Virus record (IMG/VR): IMGVR_UViG_3300020141_000342
Span: 1 to 26,775 of that record
Reading direction: 5' to 3' (one strand)
Length of the DNA stretch: 26,775 nucleotides
Source of the DNA: a virus
Each line of letters begins with the position of its first letter. Position 1 is the stretch's first letter. The translations under genes and the position numbers were made by a program. This document shows, piece after piece, positions 3,608 to 21,191 of this stretch. The notes beneath the pieces are model-generated. The model was not told where the DNA came from and searched no databases. It was given only the letters and a program-made list of their open reading frames with translations.

Positions 3608-4213
3608 ATGCAAGAAAAATACGGATTTATATACATTTGGTTTGATAAAAAACATCGTAAATACTACCTAGGTAGGCATTGGGGGTTTGCAAATGACGGT
3701 TATATTTGTTCTTCTACCGGAATGAGAAATAATTACAAAAATCGGCCATATGACTTTAAACGAAGAATCGTTTCGTATGTTTATACTACAAAAGAAGATT
3801 TAGTATTAGAAGAACAAAGATGGCTTGATTTTATTGATCCTTCTAAATTAAATAAAAAATATTATAATAAAACTAATAGAGCTTCGACTCCTTCTACTCT
3901 TGGTTATTCACATACGATAGAAACTATAGAAAAAATTAAACAGAGTAATTTAGGGTTAAAGCGTTCTGAATATACAAAGAATGCTAATAGTTTAGCTAGT
4001 ATAAAACAATTTTCAAATCAAGAACAAAGAAAAAAAACGGCTGAAGCTTCGCGTTTGATGTGGCAAGATCCAGAATATTTGGAGAAACAAAAAAAAGCCA
4101 GATCTAAACCAGGATATTATGTTGGATTTAAAGGCAAAAAACACTCTGAAGAAACAAAAAGAAAAATTTCAGAAACTAAAAAAATGAAACAGGAACTAAA
4201 AAATGGAAGCTGA
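3608..4213 (+). CDS. GIY-YIG homing endonuclease with NUMOD3 motifs (201 aa)
   Basis: The N-terminal part carries a GIY-YIG nuclease core: GFIYI (6-10) in place of GIY, KYYLG (18-22) for YIG, the following R23/H24, a DGYICSS segment, and E69 in VLEEQRWL as candidate catalytic acid. Two NUMOD3-like DNA-binding motifs follow: GYSHTIETIEKIKQSN (about 99-114) and KKHSEETKRKISETKK (about 176-191). The tail is very basic, as in free-standing Seg-type endonucleases of T-even phages. Such enzymes cut an endonuclease-free allele and spread by repair. The gene is much more A+T-rich than its neighbours, a sign of transfer, and sits between two fibre genes. Its start has no free ribosome site because GGAG is in the hairpin. 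It overlaps the next gene by 11 nt. Target sequence unknown. Confidence 0.88.
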   Translation: MQEKYGFIYIWFDKKHRKYYLGRHWGFANDGYICSSTGMRNNYKNRPYDFKRRIVSYVYTTKEDLVLEEQRWLDFIDPSKLNKKYYNKTNRASTPSTLGYSHTIETIEKIKQSNLGLKRSEYTKNANSLASIKQFSNQEQRKKTAEASRLMWQDPEYLEKQKKARSKPGYYVGFKGKKHSEETKRKISETKKMKQELKNGS

Positions 4214-4446: not shown

Positions 4447-7400
4447 ATGGCAAACAAATTTCAATTCAAGCGCACGACAGTTGCTGGTCGTACAGCTAAT
4501 ACTACTGACGTAGCAAATTCTGGTTTTATTGATAACGGCGAATTTGCAGTCAATCTAACTGATCGTAAAGTCTTCTCTTCAGACGCTGCGAATGCCATCT
4601 TCGAAGTCGGTTCAAATCTCTCTTCTCTTGCTGTTGTTACGATTGTAGCTAACGGATCGTCTGGATCCGGCGGCCAAGTTCTTTCGTCGAATGGAACAGG
4701 CCTTTATTGGGGTATAGGTGGCGAAGCGAATGCTGCTACCATGAATACCTATACGTTTACTGTGACATCAAATACGACAGTGTTTACGGGCACTGACGAT
4801 ACATCAAACACATTCATATATACTGCAGGACTTGAAAGCGTCTTTATCAATGGCTCTCGTCAGATTGCGGGCGTTGACTATAACACAACCAATACCACCG
4901 TCCTGACGCTCACGGCGAATGCGATCGCCGGTGATATTGTTCAAGTTACAACCTTAAATGGTGCTTCACTTACTCTCGGTTCTCAAGGTGTCCAAGGCGC
5001 AACTGGTGCACAAGGTGTTGCTGGTGCACAAGGTGCAACTGGAGCCCAAGGTGCACAAGGTGCAACCGGTGCTCAAGGTGTTATTGGTGCCCAAGGTGTT
5101 ATTGGTGCCCAAGGTGCACAAGGTGATACTGGAGCCCAAGGTGCTCAAGGTGTTATTGGGCCACAAGGTATTGCTGGTGCTCAAGGTGCACAAGGTGATA
5201 CTGGCGCTCAAGGTGCAACTGGAGCCCAAGGCTCTACGGGTGCTCAAGGTGCACAAGGCGTAACTGGTAATACTGGCGCACAAGGTGTTGTTGGAGATAC
5301 TGGAGCTCAAGGTGCAACTGGTAATACTGGAGCTCAGGGCGCAACCGGTGCTCAAGGTGTTGCTGGAGATACTGGCGCACAAGGCGCCCAGGGCAACGAT
5401 GGTAACTTTGGCGGGGCTACTTTCGATTATACATTCGATACAAGCACAAGTGCGGCTGATCCTGGCACTGGTAAGATAAGATTTAATAATGCCGACGTTA
5501 CTTTAGCAAGTGCGATATATATTGATGCATCAAATGATGCAGCTACTAATATTCAATCATTCTTAAACACCATCGACGATTCTACAAGCACAATTAAAGG
5601 CCACTTTAGAATCTCTAATCGGCTTGATGCTTCTGACTTTGCGTTGTTTACAATTTCATCATTGACAAATAATACTGGTTGGTTTACAGTTAACTGTGCT
5701 TATGTGAGTGGTTCTGCATCATCGTTTACAAACCTTGAAGATATTATTATTACGTTTGCAAGAACGGGCGATCGCGGAGATACAGGTGCTCAAGGCGCTC
5801 AAGGTGTCCAAGGTGCAACTGGCGCTCAAGGTGCACAAGGTGATACTGGCGCTCAAGGTGCTCAAGGCACGACTGGTAATACTGGTGCTCAAGGTGCTCA
5901 AGGTGCTCAAGGTGCTCAAGGTGCTCAGGGTGCTCAAGGCGCCGTCGGTGCTCAGGGTGCTCAAGGTGTTGCTGGAGATACCGGCGCTCAAGGTGCAACA
6001 GGTGCTCAAGGAGCGACTGGTAATACTGGCGCGCAAGGTATTGCTGGAGCTCAAGGCTCACAAGGAGCTACTGGAGCCCAAGGCGCTGAAGGTGCAGCAT
6101 CAACGGTCGCTGGTCCGCAAGGCACTACTGGCTCCCAAGGTGCTCAAGGTCCGCAAGGTGCTCAAGGCGCCGAAGGAGCAGCTTCATCGGTTGCTGGTCC
6201 ACAAGGTTCTACTGGAGCTCAAGGTGCTCAAGGTGCTCAAGGTCCGCAAGGTGTTATTGGTGCGCAAGGCGTAGCTTCAAATTCTGCTACCATGAATACT
6301 TACACGTTTACTGTGGCATCAAATACTACGGTGTTTACGGGCACTGACGACACATCAAATACATTTGTATATACTCCAGGACTTGAAAACGTCTTCATCA
6401 ATGGCTCTCGTCAGATTGCCGGCGTTGACTATAATACGACAAATACCACTGTCATGACACTCACAGCGAATGCATTAGCTGGTGATATTGTTCAAGTTAC
6501 AACTTTCAGTGACTTAGTGATCGTCGTTGGTACTCAAGGAGCAACTGGTGCTCAAGGTGTTATTGGTGCTCAAGGTGCAACAGGAGCTCAAGGCGCTCAA
6601 GGTGCACAAGGTGGTACTGGCGCCCAAGGTGTCCAAGGTGCAACTGGCGCTCAAGGTGCACAAGGTGATACTGGCGCTCAAGGTGCAACAGGAGCTCAAG
6701 GCACAACGGGTGCTCAAGGTGCACAAGGTGTTATTGGACCACAAGGTGTTACTGGTGCTCAAGGTGCTCAAGGTGCTCAGGGTGCTCAAGGTATTACTGG
6801 AGATACTGGCGCTCAAGGTGCAACTGGTGCTCAAGGAGCGCAAGGTGCTCAAGGCGATGCTTCAACAGTTGCTGGTCCACAGGGTACTACTGGAGCCCAA
6901 GGCTCACAGGGTGCGACTGGAGCCCAAGGCGCTACTGGTGCCCAAGGCGCGCAGGGCGAGACTGGTAATACTGGAGCTCAAGGCGCGACTGGTAATACTG
7001 GAGCTCAAGGTGCGCAAGGCATTACTGGAGCTCAAGGTGCTACTGGCAATACTGGAGCGCAAGGTATTCAAGGCGATACTGGCGCTCAAGGAGCAACTGG
7101 ATCACAAGGTGTTACTGGTGCTCAAGGTGCTCAAGGTGTTACTGGTGCTCAAGGTGCTCAAGGTGCAGCTTCATCGGTTGCTGGTCCACAAGGTGTTACT
7201 GGTGCTCAAGGTGCAACTGGAGCTCAAGGCGCACAAGGTGTTATTGGTGCTCAAGGTGTAGCTTCAAATCTTGCTACTATGAATACCTATACGTTTACTG
7301 TGATATCAAATACTACAGTATTTACAGGCGCAGACGATACAGCAAATACGTTAATATATACCGTTGGGCTTGAAAGTGTCTTTATTAATGGCTCTCGTCA

Positions 7401-11454: not shown

Positions 11455-12639
11455 ATGGGTATTGGTGGCGGTTCTAAATTTACACTCGAAAAAACTTGGA
11501 GAGCAAGCGGCGTCGGTAAGACTAAGTTTAATGCACCAAGCAATATCGCGATTCCTTATGGTAGAAATAGTATTCTTGTTTCAGGACAAGGCGGTATTGG
11601 CACAGCTTTAATTCCTGGGCCTGGAGCTAACTTTAATATTGTTGCAGGAACCGGTACCGGTACATTCAATATAGTTCCTGGACCTGGAGCTAACTTTAAT
11701 ATTGTTCCTGGAACTGGAAGCACATTTAATATTGTTGCAGGAACTGGTACCGGTACATTTAACAAAACTCCTGGTCCTGGTACCGGTACATTCAATATTA
11801 CTGCAGGAACTGGTACCGGTACATTTAATAAAGTTGCAGGAACTGGTGCTGGATTTAATGTTGTTGGGGGAAATGTATCAGGAAGTAACGTTACACCAGG
11901 AACTAGTGCTGGATTTAATGTTGTTGCAGGAACTGGTGCTGGATTTAACGTAGTTCCTGGCAATGTGTCTGGAAGTAACGTGACACCAGGAAATAGTGCT
12001 GGATTTAATGTTACTCCCGGACCCGTCGCATTCATTTTTAAAGGTTCTACTTTCTACAATGCTCCAAGCCCCGGGCCGGAGAACTTCAATGCTCCTTCTC
12101 CTGGACCATCAAACTTCAATGCACCTTCGAACGGTCCTCAAAACTTTAATGCACCTTCGAACGGTCCTCAAAACTTTAATGCTCCAAGCCCCGGTCCTGC
12201 AAACTACAATGCCTTTGCCAACGGGCCACAAAACTTCAATGCGCCTACAAACGGGCCACAAAACTTTAATGCACCTACCAACGGGCCACAAAACTTTAAT
12301 GCACCTACAAACGGTCCACAAAACTTCAATGCGCCTACTAACGGGCCTCAGAACTTCAATGCGCCTACTAACGGGCCACAAAACTTCAATGCGCCTACTA
12401 ACGGACCGCAAAACTTTAATGCTCCTACAAATGGCCCACAGAATTTTAATGCTCCTACTCCGGCGGTTCCAGGAAATGCAGCAAACGCCCTCGGTATTAC
12501 TTTCCCCGGATCAAATGCCGGCGGTACGCCTGCACCCGTAATAAATAGTCAGAGGGCAAGCTACTATGATTTTCCGGATGGCGCTTCACATTCGGTAACT
12601 GTGGCACCTGGAGGATATATTGAAATAACAATTGAATAA
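11455..12639 (+). CDS. Decapeptide-repeat virion protein, Pro/Asn-rich (394 aa)
   Basis: An N-terminal domain (KFTLEKTWRASGVGKTKFNA, VSGQGGIG; residues 1-45) is followed by two repeat arrays. The first (about 52-190) has imperfect 10-11-residue units like GTGTGTFNIVA and GPGANFNIVP. The second (12058-12447) has thirteen exact 30-bp units; seven read NAPTNGPQNF and the others are variants such as NAPSPGPSNF. The C terminus is a short beta domain ending VAPGGYIEITIE. The repeats may form a regular elongated beta structure on the virion. No ribosome site is obvious, and the 3-nt gap suggests coupling to the upstream fibre. The 22-nt gap to a prolyl-hydroxylase-type gene makes the repeat prolines candidate targets. 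Family not recognised. Confidence 0.72.
   Translation: MGIGGGSKFTLEKTWRASGVGKTKFNAPSNIAIPYGRNSILVSGQGGIGTALIPGPGANFNIVAGTGTGTFNIVPGPGANFNIVPGTGSTFNIVAGTGTGTFNKTPGPGTGTFNITAGTGTGTFNKVAGTGAGFNVVGGNVSGSNVTPGTSAGFNVVAGTGAGFNVVPGNVSGSNVTPGNSAGFNVTPGPVAFIFKGSTFYNAPSPGPENFNAPSPGPSNFNAPSNGPQNFNAPSNGPQNFNAPSPGPANYNAFANGPQNFNAPTNGPQNFNAPTNGPQNFNAPTNGPQNFNAPTNGPQNFNAPTNGPQNFNAPTNGPQNFNAPTNGPQNFNAPTPAVPGNAANALGITFPGSNAGGTPAPVINSQRASYYDFPDGASHSVTVAPGGYIEITIE
12058..12447 (+). repeat. Tandem 30-bp repeat array, 13 units
   Basis: Thirteen in-frame 30-nt units encode N-A-P-[ST]-[NP]-G-P-x-N-[FY] variants. Unit 6 begins NAFAN. Synonymous differences between units show that the array is not freshly amplified, but it should still recombine in frame. 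Confidence 0.95.
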
Positions 12640-12661
12640 GTGATTTGAAGAAGGATTTACT

Positions 12662-13255
12662 ATGGCATATACTATCCCTAAATATGGGAAACAATTGAAC
12701 TGCTTTTCTGTGTGGACAGGAGGATTTACTCCCGAAGAAGTCGATAAAATTATTGACATAGAAAAACTTCAAGAATTCGAAAAAGGCAGAATTGGACAAG
12801 ATTTAAATTCTCCGGCTCCAGTCGAAACTCGCGACTCAGATATCTCATGGATACATCACGACCAACATAGCGATTGGTTATTTCAGAGAATGTCTGGAAT
12901 AATATCAATAGTCAACGGTGATCATTTTATGTACAACATTGAAGGTGTCGAAGCTTTTCAGTACTCTAAATATGGTCCTAATCAACACTATACTTGGCAT
13001 TGGGACGTCGAGTTTGGTTGGCAGAAATATATAAGAAAGATATCGGCATCATTACTTCTCTCAGATCCGAATGAATACGAAGGCGGTGAATTAGAGATTA
13101 TTAATAATGGAAATCTTGAAGAAAAACTCTCGTTTAAACCAAATAAAGGTGACGTTGTATTTTTTGCTTCATGGATGCCACATCGCGTAGTGCCGGTCAC
13201 TTCTGGTTTACGTAAAAGTCTTGTAGCATGGGTAATGGGTGAAAGAGAATGTTAA
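12662..13255 (+). CDS. 2OG-Fe(II) oxygenase, prolyl 4-hydroxylase/PKHD type (197 aa)
   Basis: The enzyme fold is indicated by the iron ligands H113-W-D115 (in TWHWDVEFG) and H174 (WMPHRVVPV), with R184 (SGLRKSLVAW) as the 2-oxoglutarate-binding residue. Between them are the typical strands LLLSDPNEYEGGELEI and GDVVFFASWMPH. This is the P4Hc layout of bacterial and phage PKHD hydroxylases, and the length fits. Such enzymes hydroxylate a residue, often proline, using O2 and 2-oxoglutarate. The substrate is not visible. The neighbouring Pro-rich repeat protein (22 nt upstream) and the collagen-like fibre are candidates by position. An AAGGA ribosome site precedes the ATG. The end overlaps the next gene by 7 nt. 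Probably cytoplasmic. Confidence 0.88.
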   Translation: MAYTIPKYGKQLNCFSVWTGGFTPEEVDKIIDIEKLQEFEKGRIGQDLNSPAPVETRDSDISWIHHDQHSDWLFQRMSGIISIVNGDHFMYNIEGVEAFQYSKYGPNQHYTWHWDVEFGWQKYIRKISASLLLSDPNEYEGGELEIINNGNLEEKLSFKPNKGDVVFFASWMPHRVVPVTSGLRKSLVAWVMGEREC

Positions 13256-13986
13256 GTTGGAATCTTTTTAAGAAGAAACCTATCATCGAGTTTTATTGTC
13301 ATCGAGATGATGTCGAAGTATTGCCTCAGCCAAAACCCGCGGCAAAATATATGCCAGAATGGTATAAGAAGATTCCACCATTGATTACTGATGGAAGAGA
13401 TGATCGCGACTGGACTGGTTCACATAGTTTTACGGCAAAAAAATGCATGCCAATGATCGACGCCATGTCACTCGGATATGTCATTCCACTTATCGGTGAT
13501 CTCACGGTGAGATCAAATGATGACTGCAGTACAATAGAGGTGACATCTTCGCCTCAAATCAATGTATGTGAGTTTCATGACATTCGACAACTCGGAGAAA
13601 GATCTGCTCCTGGATTTCCTGCACCTCCTCTCAAGTTTGTCAATCCATGGATTGTAAAGACTGCTCCAGGTTGGTCGACTCTTTTTATAGCACCGATTAA
13701 TAACTTCGAAAGCCATTTTACATGTCTGTCAGGATTAGTTGATACAGATACATATCCGAAGGAAGTCAATTTCCCAGCAATCTGGCACACTCCAAATGCC
13801 GACGTACTTTTACTTGCTGGTACACCCTTAGTCATTGCTATTCCAATTAAGCGCGATGCTGTTCCATCAAAACCTACCATCAGAGATATGAAAGAAGATG
13901 AACACCGCTTAATTAATATCATATCAAAGATGCAAAATACTCGAAGAAGCGTATACACAAAAGAATTGAGAGTACCGAGAAAATGA
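13249..13986 (+). CDS. Conserved phage protein, DUF6065-like, paralogue 1 (245 aa)
   Basis: The start lies inside the end of the hydroxylase gene. The protein opens with MLSWNLFKKKP and has a CMPMIDAMSLGYVIPL segment and a core NPWIVKTAPGWSTLFIAPIN, then LSGLVDTDTYP and LLLAGTPLVIAIPIKRD. This pattern resembles the DUF6065 group of uncharacterised proteins; I hold that name loosely. No metal or nucleotide motif stands out. It has the same length as its downstream neighbour and is alignable with it, so the pair arose by duplication. Location between a hydroxylase and a glycosyltransferase suggests a part in the same modification process, but the role is unknown. Confidence 0.65.
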   Translation: MLSWNLFKKKPIIEFYCHRDDVEVLPQPKPAAKYMPEWYKKIPPLITDGRDDRDWTGSHSFTAKKCMPMIDAMSLGYVIPLIGDLTVRSNDDCSTIEVTSSPQINVCEFHDIRQLGERSAPGFPAPPLKFVNPWIVKTAPGWSTLFIAPINNFESHFTCLSGLVDTDTYPKEVNFPAIWHTPNADVLLLAGTPLVIAIPIKRDAVPSKPTIRDMKEDEHRLINIISKMQNTRRSVYTKELRVPRK

Positions 13987-14720
13987 AAAATCTATTTTCT
14001 TTTTTAAAACCAAAGAAAGATATTGAATTCGTAGATACTAAGAAGTTATCTTATCATAACTTTTCTGTTGAACGGGCCATTGATGTTCCAACGAATACAC
14101 GTAAGGTTCAACAAGACAAGTATGGCAAACATTTGATGCCGCTGTGCCCGGGAATTTTAGACTATGCACAATTTGGATACATCATTCCGGCCTGGGTAGA
14201 TATTCATATTATGGCAAATAAAGCTGGTACTTCTTGGTATATCGGTGATCGAGGTCCTCGCGGAGATCGTGGGTTCGACAATGCTATAAAGATGGATGAA
14301 AAGTTCGTCGAAGGTGCATTTACTCCAGTTGGAATTGATCCTACAGCAATCTTATTTCCATCTCCTTGGAAAATTTTTACTCAAAAAAATATCAGCGCAT
14401 TGTTGATGCCGGCATTTTATCATTCTACTTTTCTCGACGATCTGTATGTTGTTCCCGGTTTGGTAGATTACAAAAACTTCCATGTTGTAAATTGGATTTG
14501 TATGCCGAAGAGAGAATGCAACGTCCATATCAAAGCGGGAGAACCTTTAATGCATGTAATTCCTTTCCTCAATAAAGAGATTAGTGCTTCTGTTGGTCCG
14601 GCCTCAGATGAGAAAATAGATAAAACTATGAATCTAATTCCCGGAGACGATAAGCAATACTATCGAAAGTTTATGGGAATGAAAAAGAAATTTAATATGC
14701 AAAAAGAAGAGATTAAATAA
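13983..14720 (+). CDS. Conserved phage protein, paralogue 2 of the preceding gene (245 aa)
   Basis: It starts with ATGA overlap. It begins MKNLFSFLKPKKD, contains LCPGILDYAQFGYIIPAWVD matching the CMPMIDAMSLGYVIPL part of its neighbour, then SPWKIFTQKNISALLMPAFY, VPGLVDYKNF and IKAGEPLMHVIPFLNK, in the same order as in paralogue 1. Differences are large, so the duplication is old or the genes were acquired as a pair. The C terminus is basic (KKKFNMQKEEIK). It overlaps the next gene by one base (TAATG). No catalytic residues can be named. A heteromeric pair is possible. Confidence 0.65.
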   Translation: MKNLFSFLKPKKDIEFVDTKKLSYHNFSVERAIDVPTNTRKVQQDKYGKHLMPLCPGILDYAQFGYIIPAWVDIHIMANKAGTSWYIGDRGPRGDRGFDNAIKMDEKFVEGAFTPVGIDPTAILFPSPWKIFTQKNISALLMPAFYHSTFLDDLYVVPGLVDYKNFHVVNWICMPKRECNVHIKAGEPLMHVIPFLNKEISASVGPASDEKIDKTMNLIPGDDKQYYRKFMGMKKKFNMQKEEIK

Positions 14721-15742
14721 TGAATATTTTTGTTTCAGTATGTTCGTATCAAGATCCTTTACTTCCTCATACAATTAAAAGTATGTTGCAAACCAAGTCA
14801 AATAGAAATAACGTAGTCTATTCAATCTTCGAACAAACTCGTTACGAAGATTCTTTGGCATGCACTGAACCGGTACTTGTAAGTCGAGACGATGTCATCT
14901 ATAAAAGAATCGATCCCGAATACTCTGATGGTTGTGTTTGGGCAAGATACATTAACATGTTGAATATCACAAACGAGTATGACTTCATCTATCAAGTCGA
15001 CTCACACATGTTACACGATATGAATTGGGATCGTGTTTTGATTGAAGATTATAAGAGAGCCATGGATATGTGTGAGACGAATAAAGTCATCATCACTGGA
15101 TCATGTAAGTCGTTTACAATCGAAGAAAAAGACGGAGAGATTAAAACTTATCTTTGTCAAGAAGAAAATGATGCTTGCCAAGTCAAGTATTATACTATCG
15201 ATCCTGACACCTTGATTCCAGATGTACACGGAGATGTGATTCCATCAACTGATATGCCTCGTCCGGCATTTCATATTATGGCAGGAAACTTCTTCACGCA
15301 TGTCGATTGGATTGATAATGTGGGATTAGATCCAAAGATCTTCTTTGTAGGAGAAGAAGTCATGATGACGATGATGTCATATGCTGCTGGATATAAAATG
15401 TTCCATCATAGTAAGATGGTTTCATATCATCTCGAAAATACTGCGAATTGGCATACGAAAACTCCTCCAGAAAATCAAAAGGCTGCAAGAAGAAGAGAAA
15501 TACTTTCAGAGATTGGTCGTTGGCAATGGAAACATTATCTTGAGGCGTGCAGAGAAGATCTTCTTTCTGAATTTCATCAAGAATTCGGCGTAGACTTTAT
15601 TAATCTCGATATCGAAGAGCGCGCGCGCACTTATAGTCTTGATGTTATTCCTGGTAAAGTTGACGTGCTCGCTATTTCGAAGAAGTCAAAGAAGAAGATA
15701 AAATTGCCGAAGGTTCTTTTCATGAGTGAAGATGAAGAATAA
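14720..15742 (+). CDS. Glycosyltransferase, GlcNAc-transferase family (Skp1 Gnt1-like, PF11397-type) (340 aa)
   Basis: The N terminus IFVSVCSYQDPLLPHTI is the family's opening strand and nucleotide-binding turn. DGCVWARYIN (about 74-83) and YQVDSHMLHDMNWD (about 94-107) follow, DSH being the metal-binding DxD variant. Later AGNFFTHVDWI, VGLDPKIFFVGEE and AAGYKMFHHSKMVSYHL match the acceptor half of the fold. This pattern fits the GlcNAc family, whose known eukaryotic member adds GlcNAc to hydroxyproline on Skp1. The phage acceptor is unknown; hydroxyproline is suggested by the hydroxylase three genes upstream. The C-terminal 40 residues are Lys-rich and family-atypical. It overlaps the upstream gene by one base, so it is in the same operon. 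Confidence 0.82.
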   Translation: MNIFVSVCSYQDPLLPHTIKSMLQTKSNRNNVVYSIFEQTRYEDSLACTEPVLVSRDDVIYKRIDPEYSDGCVWARYINMLNITNEYDFIYQVDSHMLHDMNWDRVLIEDYKRAMDMCETNKVIITGSCKSFTIEEKDGEIKTYLCQEENDACQVKYYTIDPDTLIPDVHGDVIPSTDMPRPAFHIMAGNFFTHVDWIDNVGLDPKIFFVGEEVMMTMMSYAAGYKMFHHSKMVSYHLENTANWHTKTPPENQKAARRREILSEIGRWQWKHYLEACREDLLSEFHQEFGVDFINLDIEERARTYSLDVIPGKVDVLAISKKSKKKIKLPKVLFMSEDEE

Positions 15743-15747
15743 TTTCA

Positions 15748-15755
15748 GATAAATA
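15748..15755 (+). promoter_or_regulatory. Late promoter box GATAAATA (first of two)
   Basis: This 7/8 match to the T4 late consensus lies 6 nt after the glycosyltransferase stop, in a 62-nt gap. A second identical box follows 34 nt later, both within TTnAGATAAATA. It probably starts a fresh transcript for the small genes and the desaturase. Confidence 0.5.
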
Positions 15756-15781
15756 TACAAGAAAAATGATCTAAGTATTTA

Positions 15782-15789
15782 GATAAATA
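15782..15789 (+). promoter_or_regulatory. Late promoter box GATAAATA (second of two)
   Basis: Same 7/8 match, 16 nt before the ATG at 15805. With a start site 5-8 nt downstream the leader would just include AGAGGA (15795-15800). Being so close to the gene, it may work less well than the first box. Confidence 0.45.
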
Positions 15790-15804
15790 CGCTAAGAGGA
15801 AGAT

Positions 15805-15954
15805 ATGTCAGAAGAAACATCAAAATTCGAATCGGTTGAGTTAGGTTCAAATCCTACGGCAGAAACTCACATTGTGAAAAATTGGAATATCAAAAGTCCC
15901 ATAACAGAAGAAATTCATCAACTTTTAGTTGTGCTTAATCCAAAAGAGCTTTAG
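15805..15954 (+). CDS. Small hypothetical protein (49 aa)
   Basis: The AGAGGA ribosome site lies just before the ATG. The protein is acidic at the start (MSEETSKFESVELG), with a hydrophobic helix near the C terminus (ITEEIHQLLVVL). There are no cysteines or membrane segment. The end overlaps the AGGAG (15953-15957) that serves the next gene, so the two are coupled. The two late boxes upstream, a proper ribosome site and lack of any other frame support a real gene. Function unknown. Confidence 0.65.
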   Translation: MSEETSKFESVELGSNPTAETHIVKNWNIKSPITEEIHQLLVVLNPKEL

Positions 15955-15963
15955 GAGTTAAAA

Positions 15964-16413
15964 ATGAAATACAATTTATTTTCTTATTCTCCACTAACTT
16001 ATGTTAGAATTACTGCAGAAGATGGCGAGTTGGGAATGAGTGGTGGAGAAGACGAATCTTTTGGTGTTGTGTATATCAAAGGTGGTATGAAAATTGTTGA
16101 GTCAACAATTCCAGAACAAGTGGGCATTGTATCAAACGAACCTGGATTTGTTCCTAGATATCCAGGAGTCATTAATTACTCGACAGTTGGTGATACCGAA
16201 TGGTGTTGTTTCAATAGAAACGAAACAGGTGAAAGAACGCTTGTGTACCAGGAAGTAAATGGCTCGTATACTTTGCCAAAAGATACAGGGTTTATTGTAA
16301 TTTCAGGTTCAGTTTCCGCAGATGGGTTGACGGCGAATCAAGATGACTATTTCAGACCAAGAACTGCTGAGTGTCTTATCGAAGGCAATGCAGTACTTGT
16401 ATTGGTTTCATGA
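15964..16413 (+). CDS. Unknown beta-rich protein upstream of the desaturase (149 aa)
   Basis: AGGAG at 15953-15957 is 6 nt before the ATG. The protein is acidic and beta-rich, with MKYNLFSYSPLTYVRITAED, EDESFGVVYIKGGMKIV and YTLPKDTGFIVISGSV. These short strands separated by turns suggest a cupin-like or small jelly-roll fold, but I see no metal-binding His cluster. It ends with ATGA overlap into the desaturase gene, so the two are translated together. I do not recognise the family. Confidence 0.65.
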   Translation: MKYNLFSYSPLTYVRITAEDGELGMSGGEDESFGVVYIKGGMKIVESTIPEQVGIVSNEPGFVPRYPGVINYSTVGDTEWCCFNRNETGERTLVYQEVNGSYTLPKDTGFIVISGSVSADGLTANQDDYFRPRTAECLIEGNAVLVLVS

Positions 16414-17117
16414 TCAGGTTAATTAAAAAATTCCATCCGCGTAGCCGCATATTCGTACAGACATTTGGTTTTGCTGCAGCAATATGGGCTATTATAACAA
16501 TGAGCACGTGGCAACTATTGTTATGCTCGCTCGTTATGTTTTACCTTTATAATTTTATTGGAGTGGTAATTACATATCATCGAGTACTTGCTCATAGAGT
16601 TGGAACAATGCATCCTATTGTCGAGTTCATTTGCACAGGGCTCGGGTTTTTTGGTAGTCTGGTATCACCTGTCCTATATGTATCAACACATATCAATCAC
16701 CATAAATACATGGACACCGAAAAAGATCCACATAGCCCGAAGTATTTAGGATGGCGCACGTTTTCTTCTATTTTTTGGGTGAAAGGTGGAGATCGAAAAA
16801 CAATTGTTCGACTCAAAAGAAACAAGATATCTAATTTTTATGACGAGCATTCGTATTTAATATTTCTTCCTTTGTTATTGTTGTTTTGGCCAAAAGTGTT
16901 TTTCTTCTTCTGGTTGATACCTGTAGTAGCAACTCTTTTTTCTCAGTATATGGCCACATGGGGGCATGGAGAAGATGGACCTAAATCGCTTGGTCTAATA
17001 TACGGTATACTCTCATGCGGTGAGCATCATCACAAGTGGCATCACGAAAATTCAAATGATACTTCTGGAGAAGGTTTAGTTCATTACTTCGTGAAAGCAT
17101 TAACATATAGGACTTGA
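16410..17117 (+). CDS. Membrane fatty acid (lipid) desaturase (235 aa)
   Basis: The ATG at 16410 overlaps the preceding stop as ATGA. Three histidine boxes of the di-iron desaturases are intact: H57-RVLA-H62, H94-IN-HH98 and H208-KW-HH212. Hydrophobic segments lie at about 14-33, 36-56, 69-92 and 150-180. The layout is that of the acyl-lipid/acyl-CoA delta-9 (DesC-type) group, somewhat shorter than cellular enzymes because both ends are trimmed. The reaction would introduce a double bond into membrane acyl chains, using O2 and reduced ferredoxin or cytochrome b5 from the host. Lipid desaturases are known from marine cyanophages, which supports an auxiliary metabolic role in keeping membranes fluid during infection. 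Substrate position cannot be told. Confidence 0.9.
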   Translation: MIRLIKKFHPRSRIFVQTFGFAAAIWAIITMSTWQLLLCSLVMFYLYNFIGVVITYHRVLAHRVGTMHPIVEFICTGLGFFGSLVSPVLYVSTHINHHKYMDTEKDPHSPKYLGWRTFSSIFWVKGGDRKTIVRLKRNKISNFYDEHSYLIFLPLLLLFWPKVFFFFWLIPVVATLFSQYMATWGHGEDGPKSLGLIYGILSCGEHHHKWHHENSNDTSGEGLVHYFVKALTYRT

Positions 17118-17119
17118 TC

Positions 17120-17695
17120 GTGGGATCTCATATAAAACATTTGCTTGAACATGAAAAAGAATTGCATGTTTTTGATGACGTCTTTACTCTTTTGTTTCGA
17201 AGTTCTGTATGGTGGTTCGCAAAATATTCGACTTTTAAAATTGGGTGGAGTGACTCTGATGTTCCAGAAAGAAAATCCCACGAATATTTGCATTCAGATT
17301 GCGAAGAAAAACAGCTTGAAGATCTTGGAATAATCAAAGAATTAGAAAATTCTTGCGTTTGGGATTTTATAAAAGAATATGACATAGGAAAAACTGTCAT
17401 AAATCTTAGCACTCCATCAGATGTAAACTATGTGCATACTCATCCAGAAGATAAAATTTTGTTGTATTATGTTAATGTAGAGTGGAGAGAAGGTTGGCAC
17501 GGAGAAACACAATTTTATTCTGAAGATTTAAAACAAATTCAATTTTCATCTCCATATACCCCTGGAAGATTAATTTTATTTGATGCAAATATCCCTCATA
17601 CAATCAGGCCGCAGTCTATTATTGGTCCACAGTTTAGATTTACTTTGTCTATGTGTTTGAGTAAAAAAATAATATGCTCACCTATCGATGCGTAG
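17120..17695 (+). CDS. 2OG-Fe(II) oxygenase-like protein, P4Hc-like with HxH (191 aa)
   Basis: I chose GTG at 17120, 7 nt after AGGA; a TTG at 17114 is too close to that site. The C-terminal half has the oxygenase pattern: NYVHTHPEDKILLYYVN (H106, H108), WHGETQFY (127-133), PGRLILFDANIPH (H160), and R173 in QFRFTLSM for 2-oxoglutarate. In place of the classic HxD there is H106-T-H108. This could be an alternative ligand set or a changed activity. The N-terminal half contains an aromatic patch (SSVWWFAKYSTF) and shows no known domain. It follows the desaturase by 2 nt. Substrate unknown. Confidence 0.75.
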   Translation: MGSHIKHLLEHEKELHVFDDVFTLLFRSSVWWFAKYSTFKIGWSDSDVPERKSHEYLHSDCEEKQLEDLGIIKELENSCVWDFIKEYDIGKTVINLSTPSDVNYVHTHPEDKILLYYVNVEWREGWHGETQFYSEDLKQIQFSSPYTPGRLILFDANIPHTIRPQSIIGPQFRFTLSMCLSKKIICSPIDA

Positions 17696-17716
17696 TTTCA
17701 AGTCCACTTCGTTTAA

Positions 17717-18325
17717 TTAATTTCTAATATCTATATTACCAGAAATAGAAACACGAGGTTCGTTTGAGGTTTGAAATGGATATACCTGATGCTTGAGATA
17801 ATTTGGAAACATAATAAGAGAACCTTCCCACGTCTTATCAATATCTAATTGAGTCGTACTGATTCCGCCGTCTAATGAGTTATAAATGAATTCAAACTTT
17901 GATGCATATTTAACATGTGCTTCTTTTACATTTGGCATATTTAATTCCTCTTCTAAATCGTAAGGAATTGTAATCCATGTAACCCATGAAATAGCTTTGT
18001 GGTGAAAATGTATTGGATTATATTCGTGTTTCTTCTGAAAATTGACCCAAGCGTCATTATCAATGATATAATTTTGATTTTGATAAAAATTAAATTTTCT
18101 TGAATATTCAAGATAAGTTTGCTCTATACAATCTCTAAATTGCCCACTAATAACGTACTCAAATTCTGTTTCTATTTGTCCTATTAAAAAAGCATTGTAT
18201 TTTTTCGGCTTATTATCAACTTGCTTTTGCAAATCTCGAGTCAGATCAGCAAAAATAGAAGCGGGAATTCGTGTTTTAAGAACCCCCGGATTGTAAAGTT
18301 TTATTTCTGAAAATTCTAAGTTCAT
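17717..18325 (-). CDS. 2OG-Fe(II) oxygenase, 2OG-FeII_Oxy_5 type (202 aa)
   Basis: The last gene of a three-gene minus-strand unit. Residues 92-120 read AWVNFQKKHEYNPIHFHHKA followed by SWVTWITIP, giving H106 and H108 as iron ligands. H179 (NYLKHQVYPF) and R191 (EPRVSISGNID) complete the site. The AWVNFQKKxEYNPxHxH and EGSLIMFPNYLKHQV segments are the hallmark of the 2OG-FeII_Oxy_5 group, common in marine phages. The ribosome site GGAG lies 7 nt before the ATG, 3 nt after the glycosyltransferase stop. Substrate unknown. It ends 21 nt from the convergent plus-strand oxygenase gene, with no terminator hairpin between them. Confidence 0.85.
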   Translation of the reverse strand: MNLEFSEIKLYNPGVLKTRIPASIFADLTRDLQKQVDNKPKKYNAFLIGQIETEFEYVISGQFRDCIEQTYLEYSRKFNFYQNQNYIIDNDAWVNFQKKHEYNPIHFHHKAISWVTWITIPYDLEEELNMPNVKEAHVKYASKFEFIYNSLDGGISTTQLDIDKTWEGSLIMFPNYLKHQVYPFQTSNEPRVSISGNIDIRN

Positions 18326-18328
18326 AAC

Positions 18329-19081
18329 TTAACTCCACTTCGTTCCGTGCTTTGAGCTATACTTCGTTTCAGGATCGTATGATGCGAAGTCTTCGTAGCG
18401 AGGATCTCCTGGTTCTGCTCTCTTGCCGATGCTATATTCGCCGATATGATTCACAATGTTATGGCCTTCTTCGGTCTTCAGTTTACATGTTTGCATTCCA
18501 AGTTGTTGCAACGATTTCGCGACAACATATTCGCTTAAGTTCTTCTCACCTACTGATTCGGCATGTGGAAGATCTACTATCGCGCGAGGAAAAACACTCG
18601 CCAAACTCCAAAAATATGCCTCAGAAAGTTCGCCTCGATATTTCCCGAGTGTAATGTCTGTTTCATAAGCCTGTGTTTCCTCTTCAAAGTCATACCATTT
18701 TTGTCTTGTTAAACATACCTGAGAAACGTTTCGATAGTCATGAAGAATCTGAGTCATATCGAGCATTCGAATCGGACAATTGAACGTGACATCATCTTCT
18801 GACAGATATACGTAATCGTAATCTCGTTCTCTCAGCAGTTCGAAGGTTCGATTCCATACATATGGCAAACCCATATTTTGTTGATGTAAGATGATCTCGG
18901 TGAACCCGAAATTCTTGGCCAGTTCAAACATCGTACCATCATGACGGCCTTTTGGCATATCATCGAAAAAGATGCCTTCGACTTGACATCCACTAAAGTC
19001 TAGCATATCTCGCTGTGATTTCAGAGTAGGAATCAAATACTCAAGTCGATTTGTCGACCATATTATCTTACAAACTTTCAT
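18329..19081 (-). CDS. Glycosyltransferase-like protein, GT-A fold (250 aa)
   Basis: I chose the ATG at 19081-19079 (TGATG overlap with the upstream stop, GGAG 8 nt before it); an in-frame GTG one codon earlier is possible. The protein opens with VCKIIWSTNRLEYLIPTL, a family-2-like start that binds the nucleotide, then GIFFDDMPKGRHDG and a loop LHQQNMGLPYVWNR. YVYLSEDDVTF (about 91-100) carries the acidic metal site E-D-D. A later EAYFWSLASVFPRAIVDL may contact the acceptor. The fold suggests sugar transfer from a nucleotide sugar to protein or nucleic acid, with donor and acceptor unknown. Between two oxygenase genes it fits a hydroxylate-then-glycosylate sequence. Confidence 0.75.
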   Translation of the reverse strand: MKVCKIIWSTNRLEYLIPTLKSQRDMLDFSGCQVEGIFFDDMPKGRHDGTMFELAKNFGFTEIILHQQNMGLPYVWNRTFELLRERDYDYVYLSEDDVTFNCPIRMLDMTQILHDYRNVSQVCLTRQKWYDFEEETQAYETDITLGKYRGELSEAYFWSLASVFPRAIVDLPHAESVGEKNLSEYVVAKSLQQLGMQTCKLKTEEGHNIVNHIGEYSIGKRAEPGDPRYEDFASYDPETKYSSKHGTKWS

Positions 19082-19629
19082 CACGCTTGCTCCGTATCAA
19101 AGAAAAATGTTTGGAAAAGACGACCATCGTACAAATCTTTACCAAAGTAATCGAGGCTAGCGTGGAAAAGATCTCCGCTATAAAGAATGAGTCGATTGTA
19201 TTTGTTGCCTACAACATCGATTCGATCCCACTTGGTATAGTCGTATGCTTCGTGCTCGTTTGTTGGAGCTCGATATTCGCCTGTTTCTTTATGTCGATAC
19301 ATGGCAGTGCCAGCGGTATGCGGTGCATCTGGTGACAAGTAGCATACACCAGCCCACGTACTCGTGTGATCGCAATGAATCCACGTTCTATCTGAAGCGG
19401 TAGCATATTGAAAGGCGCCAGTATAACCCGAATCTTCGTGCCAATTAGAAATCTTTCCGACTGGATTCATCCAATGTTGAATGCAATCTTTGACATCTTG
19501 TGTCAAGAAAGAAGGCGTTCGTTTTCCTGGATAATTGCCTATGACACTAAATTCTTGTGTCAGAGCGAAAGCTCGTACGGCATCTGGATTGATATAGAAG
19601 TTATCAATAATCATCAAGTCTAAATTCAT
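19081..19629 (-). CDS. DUF6445-type 2OG-Fe(II) oxygenase-like protein (182 aa)
   Basis: First gene of the minus-strand unit. The segments MIIDNFYINPDAVRAFAL, GNYPGKRTPSF, YTGAFQYATASDRTWIHCD and GNKYNRLILYSGDLFHASLD follow the pattern of the DUF6445 family. H85-C-D87 and H156 provide a complete iron site of the HxD...H kind, and R170 (DGRLFQTFFF) is a good 2-oxoglutarate-binding candidate. Length matches the family. GAGGA lies 11 nt before the ATG, and a perfect minus-strand late promoter box is at 19661-19668. Substrate is unknown; the family is frequent in marine T4-like phages. Confidence 0.83.
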   Translation of the reverse strand: MNLDLMIIDNFYINPDAVRAFALTQEFSVIGNYPGKRTPSFLTQDVKDCIQHWMNPVGKISNWHEDSGYTGAFQYATASDRTWIHCDHTSTWAGVCYLSPDAPHTAGTAMYRHKETGEYRAPTNEHEAYDYTKWDRIDVVGNKYNRLILYSGDLFHASLDYFGKDLYDGRLFQTFFFDTEQA

Positions 19630-19714: not shown

Positions 19715-20458
19715 ATGGCAACTCCTACTACAAAAGCGACATTTAAAGAGTATTGCCTTCGGAAGCTCGGCAAACCGGTCATTGAGATTAACGTCGACGA
19801 TGATCAGGTCGATGATCGTATCGACGAAGCTTTACGTTACTGGTATGACTATCACTTTGATGGTTCAGAAAAAGTATATTATAAGCATGCAATCACAGAG
19901 ACTGATGTCGCAAACAAGTATATTACTCTTCCAGAAAATATCATTGGAGCTGTGAGTATCTTCTCGATAGGAGATCCTTCGCTAAGCTCTGATGACCTCT
20001 TTAACATTCGTTATCAGATAGCTCTGAATGATATTTATACGCTAACAAACGTATCTCTCGTGCCATATTACATGGTCATGGAGCATCTTGCTTTGATGAC
20101 AGAGCTTCTTGTTGGCAAACAACCGATTCGCTATTCTCGCCATAAAGATCGATTACATGTCGACATGGACTGGAATACCGTTGCCGTCGGCTCGTTTTTA
20201 CTTGTAGAAGCTTATGAGGTCGTCGATCCAGAAACTTTTACAGATGCATATAACGATCGTTGGCTTCAAAACTATGCAACGACTTTGATTAAAGAGCAAT
20301 GGGGTTCAAATCTTACGAAGTTTACTGGAATGTCTTTACCGGGCGGAGTACAGTTTAACGGAGAAAAAATCTATAATGACGCGGTCGACGCAAGAACTAA
20401 GATGGAACAAGAAATGATTTCATCTTATTCCCTTCCGGTTCTCGATATGATAGGTTAA
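19715..20458 (+). CDS. 13: Neck protein gp13 (247 aa)
   Basis: Recognised from the start KATFKEYCLRKLGKPVIEIN, the acidic VDDDQVDDRIDEALRYWYDYHFDG helix, and the C-terminal FNGEKIYNDAVDARTKMEQE, typical of the T4 gp13 group. It is shorter than T4 gp13 (about 309 residues), as in marine relatives. With gp14 it forms the neck ring that closes the DNA-filled head and joins it to the tail. It is the first gene of a tightly packed set in T4 order (13-14-15-16-17-18) and lies behind the late promoter at 19674-19681, so late expression is expected. Confidence 0.92.
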   Translation: MATPTTKATFKEYCLRKLGKPVIEINVDDDQVDDRIDEALRYWYDYHFDGSEKVYYKHAITETDVANKYITLPENIIGAVSIFSIGDPSLSSDDLFNIRYQIALNDIYTLTNVSLVPYYMVMEHLALMTELLVGKQPIRYSRHKDRLHVDMDWNTVAVGSFLLVEAYEVVDPETFTDAYNDRWLQNYATTLIKEQWGSNLTKFTGMSLPGGVQFNGEKIYNDAVDARTKMEQEMISSYSLPVLDMIG

Positions 20459-20462
20459 CCCT

Positions 20463-21191
20463 ATGACAACCAACTTTTATTTCAACAATTTTACGAATAG
20501 TCAAGAGCAGATCTTAATTGAGGATCTGGTTCTTGAGTCTATTCAAATATATGGGCACGATGTATTTTATTGCCCACGTACTTTGATAGATAAAGACGAA
20601 GTTTACGAAGAAGATTCATTATCACAGTACAACAGTAATTATTTAATTGACATGTTTATTCGTAGCTATGAGAGCTATGAAGGCGATGGTCAATTCTTAT
20701 CGAAGTTTGGTCTTGAGATTCGAGATCAGGTTACATTTACTGTCTCTGTTCGTAACTTTATGAATGAGATTGGATCAATAGAAATGATCGATCGTCCTCA
20801 AGAAGGCGATCTGATTTATCTTGCCATGGCAGATCGTTTGATGTATGTCAAGTATGTCAATAAAACTCCTGTCTTTTATCAGATGGGCGCTATTCAGATG
20901 TATGATCTCGTTTGCGAGATGTTTGAGTATGGCAGTGAGAAGTTAAATACTGGCATTGAAGCCATTGATAGTATCGAGAAGTTAAGTAGCTTAAGTCTTG
21001 ATGCCTTTGGAATCTTGACGAATGACAATTTACTTCTGGTTACTCAAGAAGGAAATCCAATCATACAAGGCAGCTATGATTTTGGTACTCAAGCCGGAGA
21101 TGCATTCGAAGATAATGTCGAGTTTGAAACAGACGGGGACACTATCCTTGACTGGACGCAAATAGATCCGTTTAGTGAGGGACAAGTATAA
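20463..21191 (+). CDS. 14: Neck protein gp14 (242 aa)
   Basis: Starts 4 nt after gp13. The IEDLVLESIQIYGHDVFYCP opening and FLSKFGLEIRDQVTFTVSVR are features of T4 gp14. The acidic tail (FEDNVEFETDGDTILDWTQI) is also typical. Its length is close to T4 gp14 (about 256). It pairs with gp13 in the neck and provides the docking site for the tail. The TAA stop shares a base with the gp15 ATG. Confidence 0.9.
   Translation: MTTNFYFNNFTNSQEQILIEDLVLESIQIYGHDVFYCPRTLIDKDEVYEEDSLSQYNSNYLIDMFIRSYESYEGDGQFLSKFGLEIRDQVTFTVSVRNFMNEIGSIEMIDRPQEGDLIYLAMADRLMYVKYVNKTPVFYQMGAIQMYDLVCEMFEYGSEKLNTGIEAIDSIEKLSSLSLDAFGILTNDNLLLVTQEGNPIIQGSYDFGTQAGDAFEDNVEFETDGDTILDWTQIDPFSEGQV

Follow-up and report, generated by a model that had tools for sequence, protein, structure and literature searches.

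Why should a T4-like phage carry the genes of a 2-oxoglutarate (2OG)-Fe(II) oxygenase and a glycosyltransferase in one string directly behind the gene of a repeat fibre protein? The question is raised by a 26,775-base IMG/VR virus record (IMGVR_UViG_3300020141_000342, hereafter the window, at its full length). Within its positions 12662-19629, an original prediction had proposed a pathway that hydroxylates and glycosylates virion fibres. From sequence comparison, it is fairly probable that positions 11455-15742 form a self-contained, portable fibre-maturation cassette in which the oxygenase K hydroxylates the repeat protein J, the glycosyltransferase N glycosylates it and the paralogous proteins L and M assist. 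Many uncultured T4-like phages would then probably decorate their own fibre with hydroxyls and sugars. The features of the cassette are as follows.

J, 11455..12639, plus strand: repeat fibre protein of 394 amino acids (aa), likely substrate, from translation; conserved N-cap, 10-11-mer [FY]N..PG repeats, decapeptide repeats and conserved C-cap.
J decapeptide array, 12058..12447, plus strand: 13 units, consensus NAPTNGPQNF, also seen with TRF.
J C-terminal cap, 12448..12636, plus strand: ALGITFPGSN...YYDFPDGASHSVTVAPGGYIEITIE; a similar cap occurs in the divergent cassettes of loci L224, L231, L243, L258 and others, and in L055.
K, 12662..13255, plus strand: 2OG-Fe(II) oxygenase, prolyl-hydroxylase/PKHD-like, 197 aa, from PF13640 and phrog_61 matches.
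L, 13249..13986, plus strand: DUF6065/phrog_7084 protein of 245 aa, proposed accessory (PF19541, 1.1e-12; phrog_7084, 6.8e-53).
M, 13983..14720, plus strand: divergent paralogue of L, 245 aa (phrog_7084, 3.3e-20; alignment; conserved L-M-N position).
N, 14720..15742, plus strand: PF11397/GT60-type glycosyltransferase of 340 aa with D94-S-H96, of a clade confined to the cassette.

The five genes form one string in the window, the K-L-M-N frames overlapping and lying directly behind J; L and M, which the original prediction had left out, are paralogues and belong to the unit. Close relatives were collected by a search with N, which returned 43 IMG/VR loci, and the J-K-L-M-N order was found in every one of these that was long enough. 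Among them K, L, M and N were nearly constant in length (197, 245, 246 and ~340 aa), and J was between 394 and 697 aa long, its caps preserved and its repeats differing. Distant relatives were obtained by searching with profiles of N, L, M and K (hundreds of loci). The K-L-M-N or K-N order recurred in ~20 independent clusters, a count which, like the other cluster counts, depends on the 80% identity cut and on open reading frame (ORF) calls without start refinement. The genes were overlapping or touching, with spacings of -31 to +7 bp for K-L, -14 to +2 bp for L-M and -4 to +6 bp for M-N; in nearly all independent clusters these gene pairs overlap, by 1-31 bp. Proteins with 38% or more identity to the window's N fell into 21 clusters, and all 20 with genomic context were in a cassette (L054 was counted as one, L-M-N being visible before the contig end). 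J was upstream of K in 18 of the 18 K-L-M-N or K-N clusters whose sequence reaches it (L251 and L376 were judged by eye), and directly so except in L248 and L252, where one or two small genes lie between. More distant viral GT60 genes had no K, L or M within five genes in 27 of 28 clusters; L314 has two L-like neighbours. Among 50,697 phage isolate records, none encodes a member of the N clade and only three distant GT60 matches were found; all cassette-bearing contigs are uncultivated. The flanks of the cassette differ, with gp13 in the window, a pair of genes homologous to those at 18329 and 19081 in rearranged order in L017, and baseplate-like genes in L055. The linkage check proposed for the hydroxylase-like enzyme, the GT60-type transferase and the repeat protein thus came out in favour of their functional link, since the association recurs across divergent contigs.

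The catalytic assignment of K at 12662 was borne out. Its match to PF13640 (2OG-FeII_Oxy_3; 1.2e-17, 65.1 bits) exceeds the curated cut-off of 27, it matches phrog_61 at 1.9e-35, and its Fe/2OG centre is intact, H113-x-D115, H174 and R184 being invariant in two alignments. When K was compared with PDB profiles, PKHD came first (1.6e-12), followed by prolyl 4-hydroxylase (P4H) entries from 1.5e-8 (5c5t, which we take to be the P4H of chlorovirus PBCV-1) to 3.8e-7 and by EGLN1 (1.3e-5). Genes of the phrog_61 type are common in cyanophages, and the identity of K to phage isolate homologues was ~31-43% among the matches listed. Predicted structures of phage phrog_61 proteins resemble EGLN prolyl hydroxylases (PMC12774648), and oxygenase genes of T4-like cyanophages have been catalogued among auxiliary genes, collagen being given as the textbook target (PMC9301287). 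L017 (13055-19142, minus strand) has a further oxygenase/DUF6065 pair with 39-40% identity to K and L, near a 1030-aa collagen-like gene; the genomes that carry this pair also have the main cassette, and another 2OG-FeII_Oxy_5 gene is found there.

N fits the GlcNAc family, as had been claimed for the gene at 14720: it matched PF11397 at 2.7e-25 (90 bits; curated cut-off, 21) and also phrog_24687, and its homologue in the L231 cassette reached 102.5 bits. The D94-S-H96 triplet is invariant down to 27% identity and, by analogy with the DxH of related transferases, may be a DxD-like metal motif of the GT-A type. PDB sequence searches with N and its profile gave no useful match, and those with the profile of L gave nothing useful. 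AlphaFold models built from five-sequence alignments had a pLDDT (predicted local distance difference test) of 41 for N and 38 for L, too low to be of use.

L proteins formed 55 clusters (80% identity) and usually adjoined K. Related genes were also seen elsewhere. In cyanophages Syn9 (L047) and S-RIM44 (L052), DUF6065-like genes lie directly 3' of tandem tryptophan halogenases, and in S-RIM44 the halogenase/DUF6065 string extends between a structural gene and the neck gene gp13. These strings are possibly a halogenating analogue of the J-K-L-M-N cassette; the position of DUF6065 beside halogenases would fit a general accessory role in protein oxidation, which is given here as a lead. DUF6065/phrog_7084 homologues (~30-35% identity) also occur in dozens of haloarchaeal tailed viruses, such as HRTV-7 (L046) and HF2 (L053), with no annotated oxygenase nearby.

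J is probably a virion fibre, and the substrate, with conserved end caps and exchangeable repeats. The N-cap is similar across the J proteins of all lineages (e.g. TW......TTTFN.PGN..IPYGR....VSGRGGTG), the C-cap in K-L-M-N cassettes reads ALGV.FPGG...YPDN..YPV.VP.GG.I, and the repeats between the caps differ entirely from lineage to lineage. Seven NAPTNGPQNF units of the window's J have one and the same amino acid sequence, each with a different DNA sequence; selection thus acts on the repeat at the protein level. Proline makes up a median of 11.2% (4.4-25.1) of J in K-L-M(-N) cassettes versus 4.3% in ordinary ORFs. Matches of J to Caulobacter phage proteins covered the repeats only (26% identity, no annotated cassette neighbours) and were treated as compositional. 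In L231, the repeat ORF upstream of the first J (positions 3-959) has, beyond a poly-Gly stretch, a globular and unrelated C-terminal part that may be a frameshifted or a Hint/intein-like domain.

The original prediction had pointed to a Pro-rich repeat protein (11455) and a collagen-like fibre (4441) upstream of the enzymes. Both are real (translation; Collagen, 4.3e-84), and the collagen-like fibre was discarded as the main substrate. It holds 20 prolines and two Pro-Gly in 1538 aa, and in its 202 Gly-X-Y triplets the commonest Y residues tallied were Gln, Thr and Ala with no proline among them, which does not match a P4H substrate. Such scarcity agrees with viral collagens as reported, bacteria and viruses being said to be without the prolyl hydroxylases required for collagen (PMC3368898).

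In the mechanism proposed, K would hydroxylate residues in the repeats of J during late expression, most likely proline. N would then add a sugar to J, on the new hydroxyl or on a neighbouring residue, and in other lineages a sulfotransferase would take this part. L and M, paralogues of each other, may be accessory proteins for presenting or binding the repeats, and the likely benefit would be a fibre that is stiffer, receptor-tuned or protected from proteases. Proline is favoured as the target of K because J is Pro-rich and because Pro-Gly in Gly-rich fibres is denser beside K (L-K units; median of 4.1 versus 0.5 per 100 aa away from K; Mann-Whitney p=8e-4, after rough deduplication only and with relatedness not removed).

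Natural variants of the cassette were compared next to this scheme. L231 has two tandem units, J-K-N then J-K-L-M; in the first, K and N are directly adjacent, and K can therefore pair with N without L and M. L224 and L225 have the order J-K-sulfotransferase-L-M and no N, the sulfotransferase being of family PF03567 (4.8e-10).

L224 sulfotransferase, 6573-7274: in the place of the glycosyltransferase; homologues are next to K in L242 and L248 and in its vicinity in L315.

As GT60 enzymes and sulfotransferases both act on hydroxyls, the exchange fits a logic of hydroxylation followed by decoration. A sulfotransferase gene was also seen at L001 (11151-11855). L158, L238, L240 and L274 have K-L(-M) and no N, and in a separate K clade (support 98/87) the order is L-K, downstream of Gly-rich fibres that resemble collagen or polyglycine. 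Mapped on the K tree, the distribution of N requires four or more changes, with separated N-less cassettes interspersed among N-bearing ones. This pattern fits an old K-N pairing with later losses and does not prove it.

Several observations weigh against the cassette acting on proline of J as proposed. Judged from profile matches, the best solved relatives of K are of the PKHD type (PiuC), not collagen P4H. Some J repeats of the divergent L055 and L248 have no proline, which therefore cannot be the target in every repeat. The correlation between [FY]N and the glycosyltransferase was not significant after tree correction (three independent pairs), and gene linkage could also stem from a common time of expression.

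The modified residue is the point at which explanations part. The trypanosome GT60 enzyme has threonine as its acceptor, and N could likewise place its sugar on threonine (or serine) of the repeats, as on threonine of bacterial collagen-like proteins, with hydroxylation by K as a separate step stiffening the fibre. Every J protein contains threonine (6-17%), and GT60 includes both the Skp1 hydroxyproline transferase and the Trypanosoma cruzi polypeptide GlcNAc-transferase (PMC6939170). We nevertheless regard threonine as an unlikely target, for it is dispensable in the window-type decapeptide: in close J orthologues the 'NAPT' slot reads APT, APS, AAT, PAT, PAN or VA, with 'GP[QA]N[FY]N' nearly constant, and the direct adjacency of K and N in L231 also counts against it. 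Another explanation centres on the [FY]N motif. This motif, which stays constant while proline positions vary, was present in 17 of the 17 glycosyltransferase-linked J proteins examined, at 3.3-8.9 per 100 aa. Six J proteins have no linked transferase, and in three of these the motif is rare (nearly absent in L158, L240 and L224, all without N); in the sequences compared it is the motif that best tracks the transferase. K might then hydroxylate the Asn or the aromatic residue of [FY]N, with N glycosylating there or recognizing the motif. The Gly-rich fibres of L-K units, however, keep K with almost no [FY]N; across Gly-rich fibres Pro-Gly tracks K and Asn content does not; the tree contrasts given above count here as well, and the motif may simply be structural. 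Modification at [FY]N is accordingly held to be improbable.

Two further explanations remove the fibre from the reaction. T4-like pelagimyophages have, between their tail and neck genes, a variable cluster for host recognition, whose glycosyltransferases were interpreted as modifiers of host lipopolysaccharide (PMC7029224); the window region corresponds to this cluster, and more distant viral GT60 genes do exist outside the cassette. N could by this account alter the host O-antigen during infection instead of the fibre. That literature mainly concerns family GT8, however, whereas PF11397 is a family of protein O-glycosyltransferases in eukaryotes, and members of the cassette GT60 clade were always found together with K-L-M or K and, where the sequence reaches, a capped J, in overlapping frames. 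An action on the host surface is hence considered distinctly improbable. Oxygenase-glycosyltransferase pairs modify DNA elsewhere, as in base J, and DNA hypermodification was considered as well. Cyanophage P4H-domain genes were once tied to DNA repair through their neighbourhood (PMC2984593). K is a PF13640 protein nearest to PKHD, P4H and EGLN, and no match to TET/JBP or AlkB was obtained; what accompanies the cassette is a fibre-type protein rather than genes of DNA metabolism. DNA as the substrate is disfavoured and would be very surprising. The reading retained is hydroxylation and glycosylation of J. Its most specific form is put forward tentatively and may well prove wrong: a Skp1-like two-step glycosylation or sulfation of hydroxyproline on a modular tail fibre of uncultured T4-like phages, in which a conserved hydroxylase would set the handle, interchangeable transferases (GT60 or sulfotransferase) would decorate it, and the repeats would evolve to match the transferase.

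In the Skp1 system of Toxoplasma and Dictyostelium, a 2OG prolyl-hydroxylase-type enzyme (PhyA) is likewise paired with a GT60-family transferase (Gnt1), which requires the hydroxylated proline (PMC6939170). That system acts on one proline of a ubiquitin-ligase subunit, whereas the cassette comprises a repetitive phage protein and two DUF6065 proteins in an operon, its chemistry being a prediction. PBCV-1 P4H and other phage phrog_61 oxygenases share the 2OG_Oxy_3 superfamily with K; unlike the cassette contigs, the isolates in the 50,697-record phage set have no GT60 of the N clade. Mimivirus L230, in a virus of a eukaryotic host, is a bifunctional collagen lysyl hydroxylase-glucosyltransferase. 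Both it and the cassette would be virus-encoded hydroxylation and glycosylation of a fibre-like protein, but L230 acts on collagen lysine and the collagen-like fibre of the window is not an apparent substrate. Mycobacteriophages have glycosyltransferase genes, and capsid glycosylation was suggested for them (PMC11256854); this virion glycosylation is without a hydroxylase step or a repeat protein, and its glycosyltransferase families are different as far as known. In the literature on hydroxyproline or P4H with phage tail fibres, of which coverage was incomplete with few subscription papers, no such hydroxylation-glycosylation cassette was described.

The oxygenases of T4-like cyanophages have long been noted with no known substrate, and the cassette offers J as a concrete substrate, an enzyme pair open to test and naturally occurring variants (GT60, sulfotransferase or neither). 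If the proposal is true, phages tailor their fibres chemically, which adds a layer of control over host range and stability invisible to sequence-only fibre studies, and DUF6065 gains a first functional context.

The remaining genes of the predicted pathway were examined in the same way. Four oxygenases had been claimed. Those at 12662 and 17717 (2OG-FeII_Oxy_5, 4.5e-12) stood; the gene given at 17120 is an ORF starting at 17114 (TTG) with a match to 2OG-FeII_Oxy_3 under the Pfam cut-off (0.0017), and that at 19081 is a DUF6445 protein (3.9e-15) with a marginal 2OG match (0.018). The second of the two claimed glycosyltransferases, at 18329, is likewise weaker than N, with a modest PHROG match (2.7e-5) and no Pfam match. 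The genes at 18329 and 19081 form a separate opposite-strand pair that stays by gp13 or travels with it on rearrangement (L017), and the 17114 gene is absent from relatives; the inclusion of the other oxygenases and the second glycosyltransferase in the same pathway was therefore abandoned. Genes O (15964) and Q (17114) were dropped as cassette members since they are replaced or absent in relatives, in which N is typically followed by a 177-aa gene, a desaturase-like gene, a sulfotransferase-like gene and another oxygenase. In the window, a fatty-acid-desaturase-like gene with histidine boxes is located at 16371-17117 (PF00487, 0.0088, under the cut-off). Nearly all close relatives have a fast-evolving homologue (~40-50% identity) behind the cassette, and a further desaturase-like homologue lies near a distant GT60 (L056-L058). 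The PHROG labels at 17114-17695 and 19081-19629 seem misleading: the proteins that match phrog_274 ('DNA endonuclease V') and phrog_1644 ('minor coat protein') are oxygenase-like or DUF6445 proteins.

The predicted setting of the enzyme genes between fibre and neck genes was correct. Upstream lie the 1538-aa collagen-like fibre, a Gly-rich protein (9003) and a fibre-like protein (10012); downstream are T4-like neck genes (gp13-like at 19715, gp14-like at 20463), a tail sheath stabiliser (21191), the large terminase (22400) and the tail sheath (24187). Among the matches listed, the closest terminases were those of Synechococcus and Pelagibacter phages, at up to ~57% identity. A homing-endonuclease-like gene (NUMOD3, phrog_314) is present at 3608-4213, just 5' of the fibre genes.

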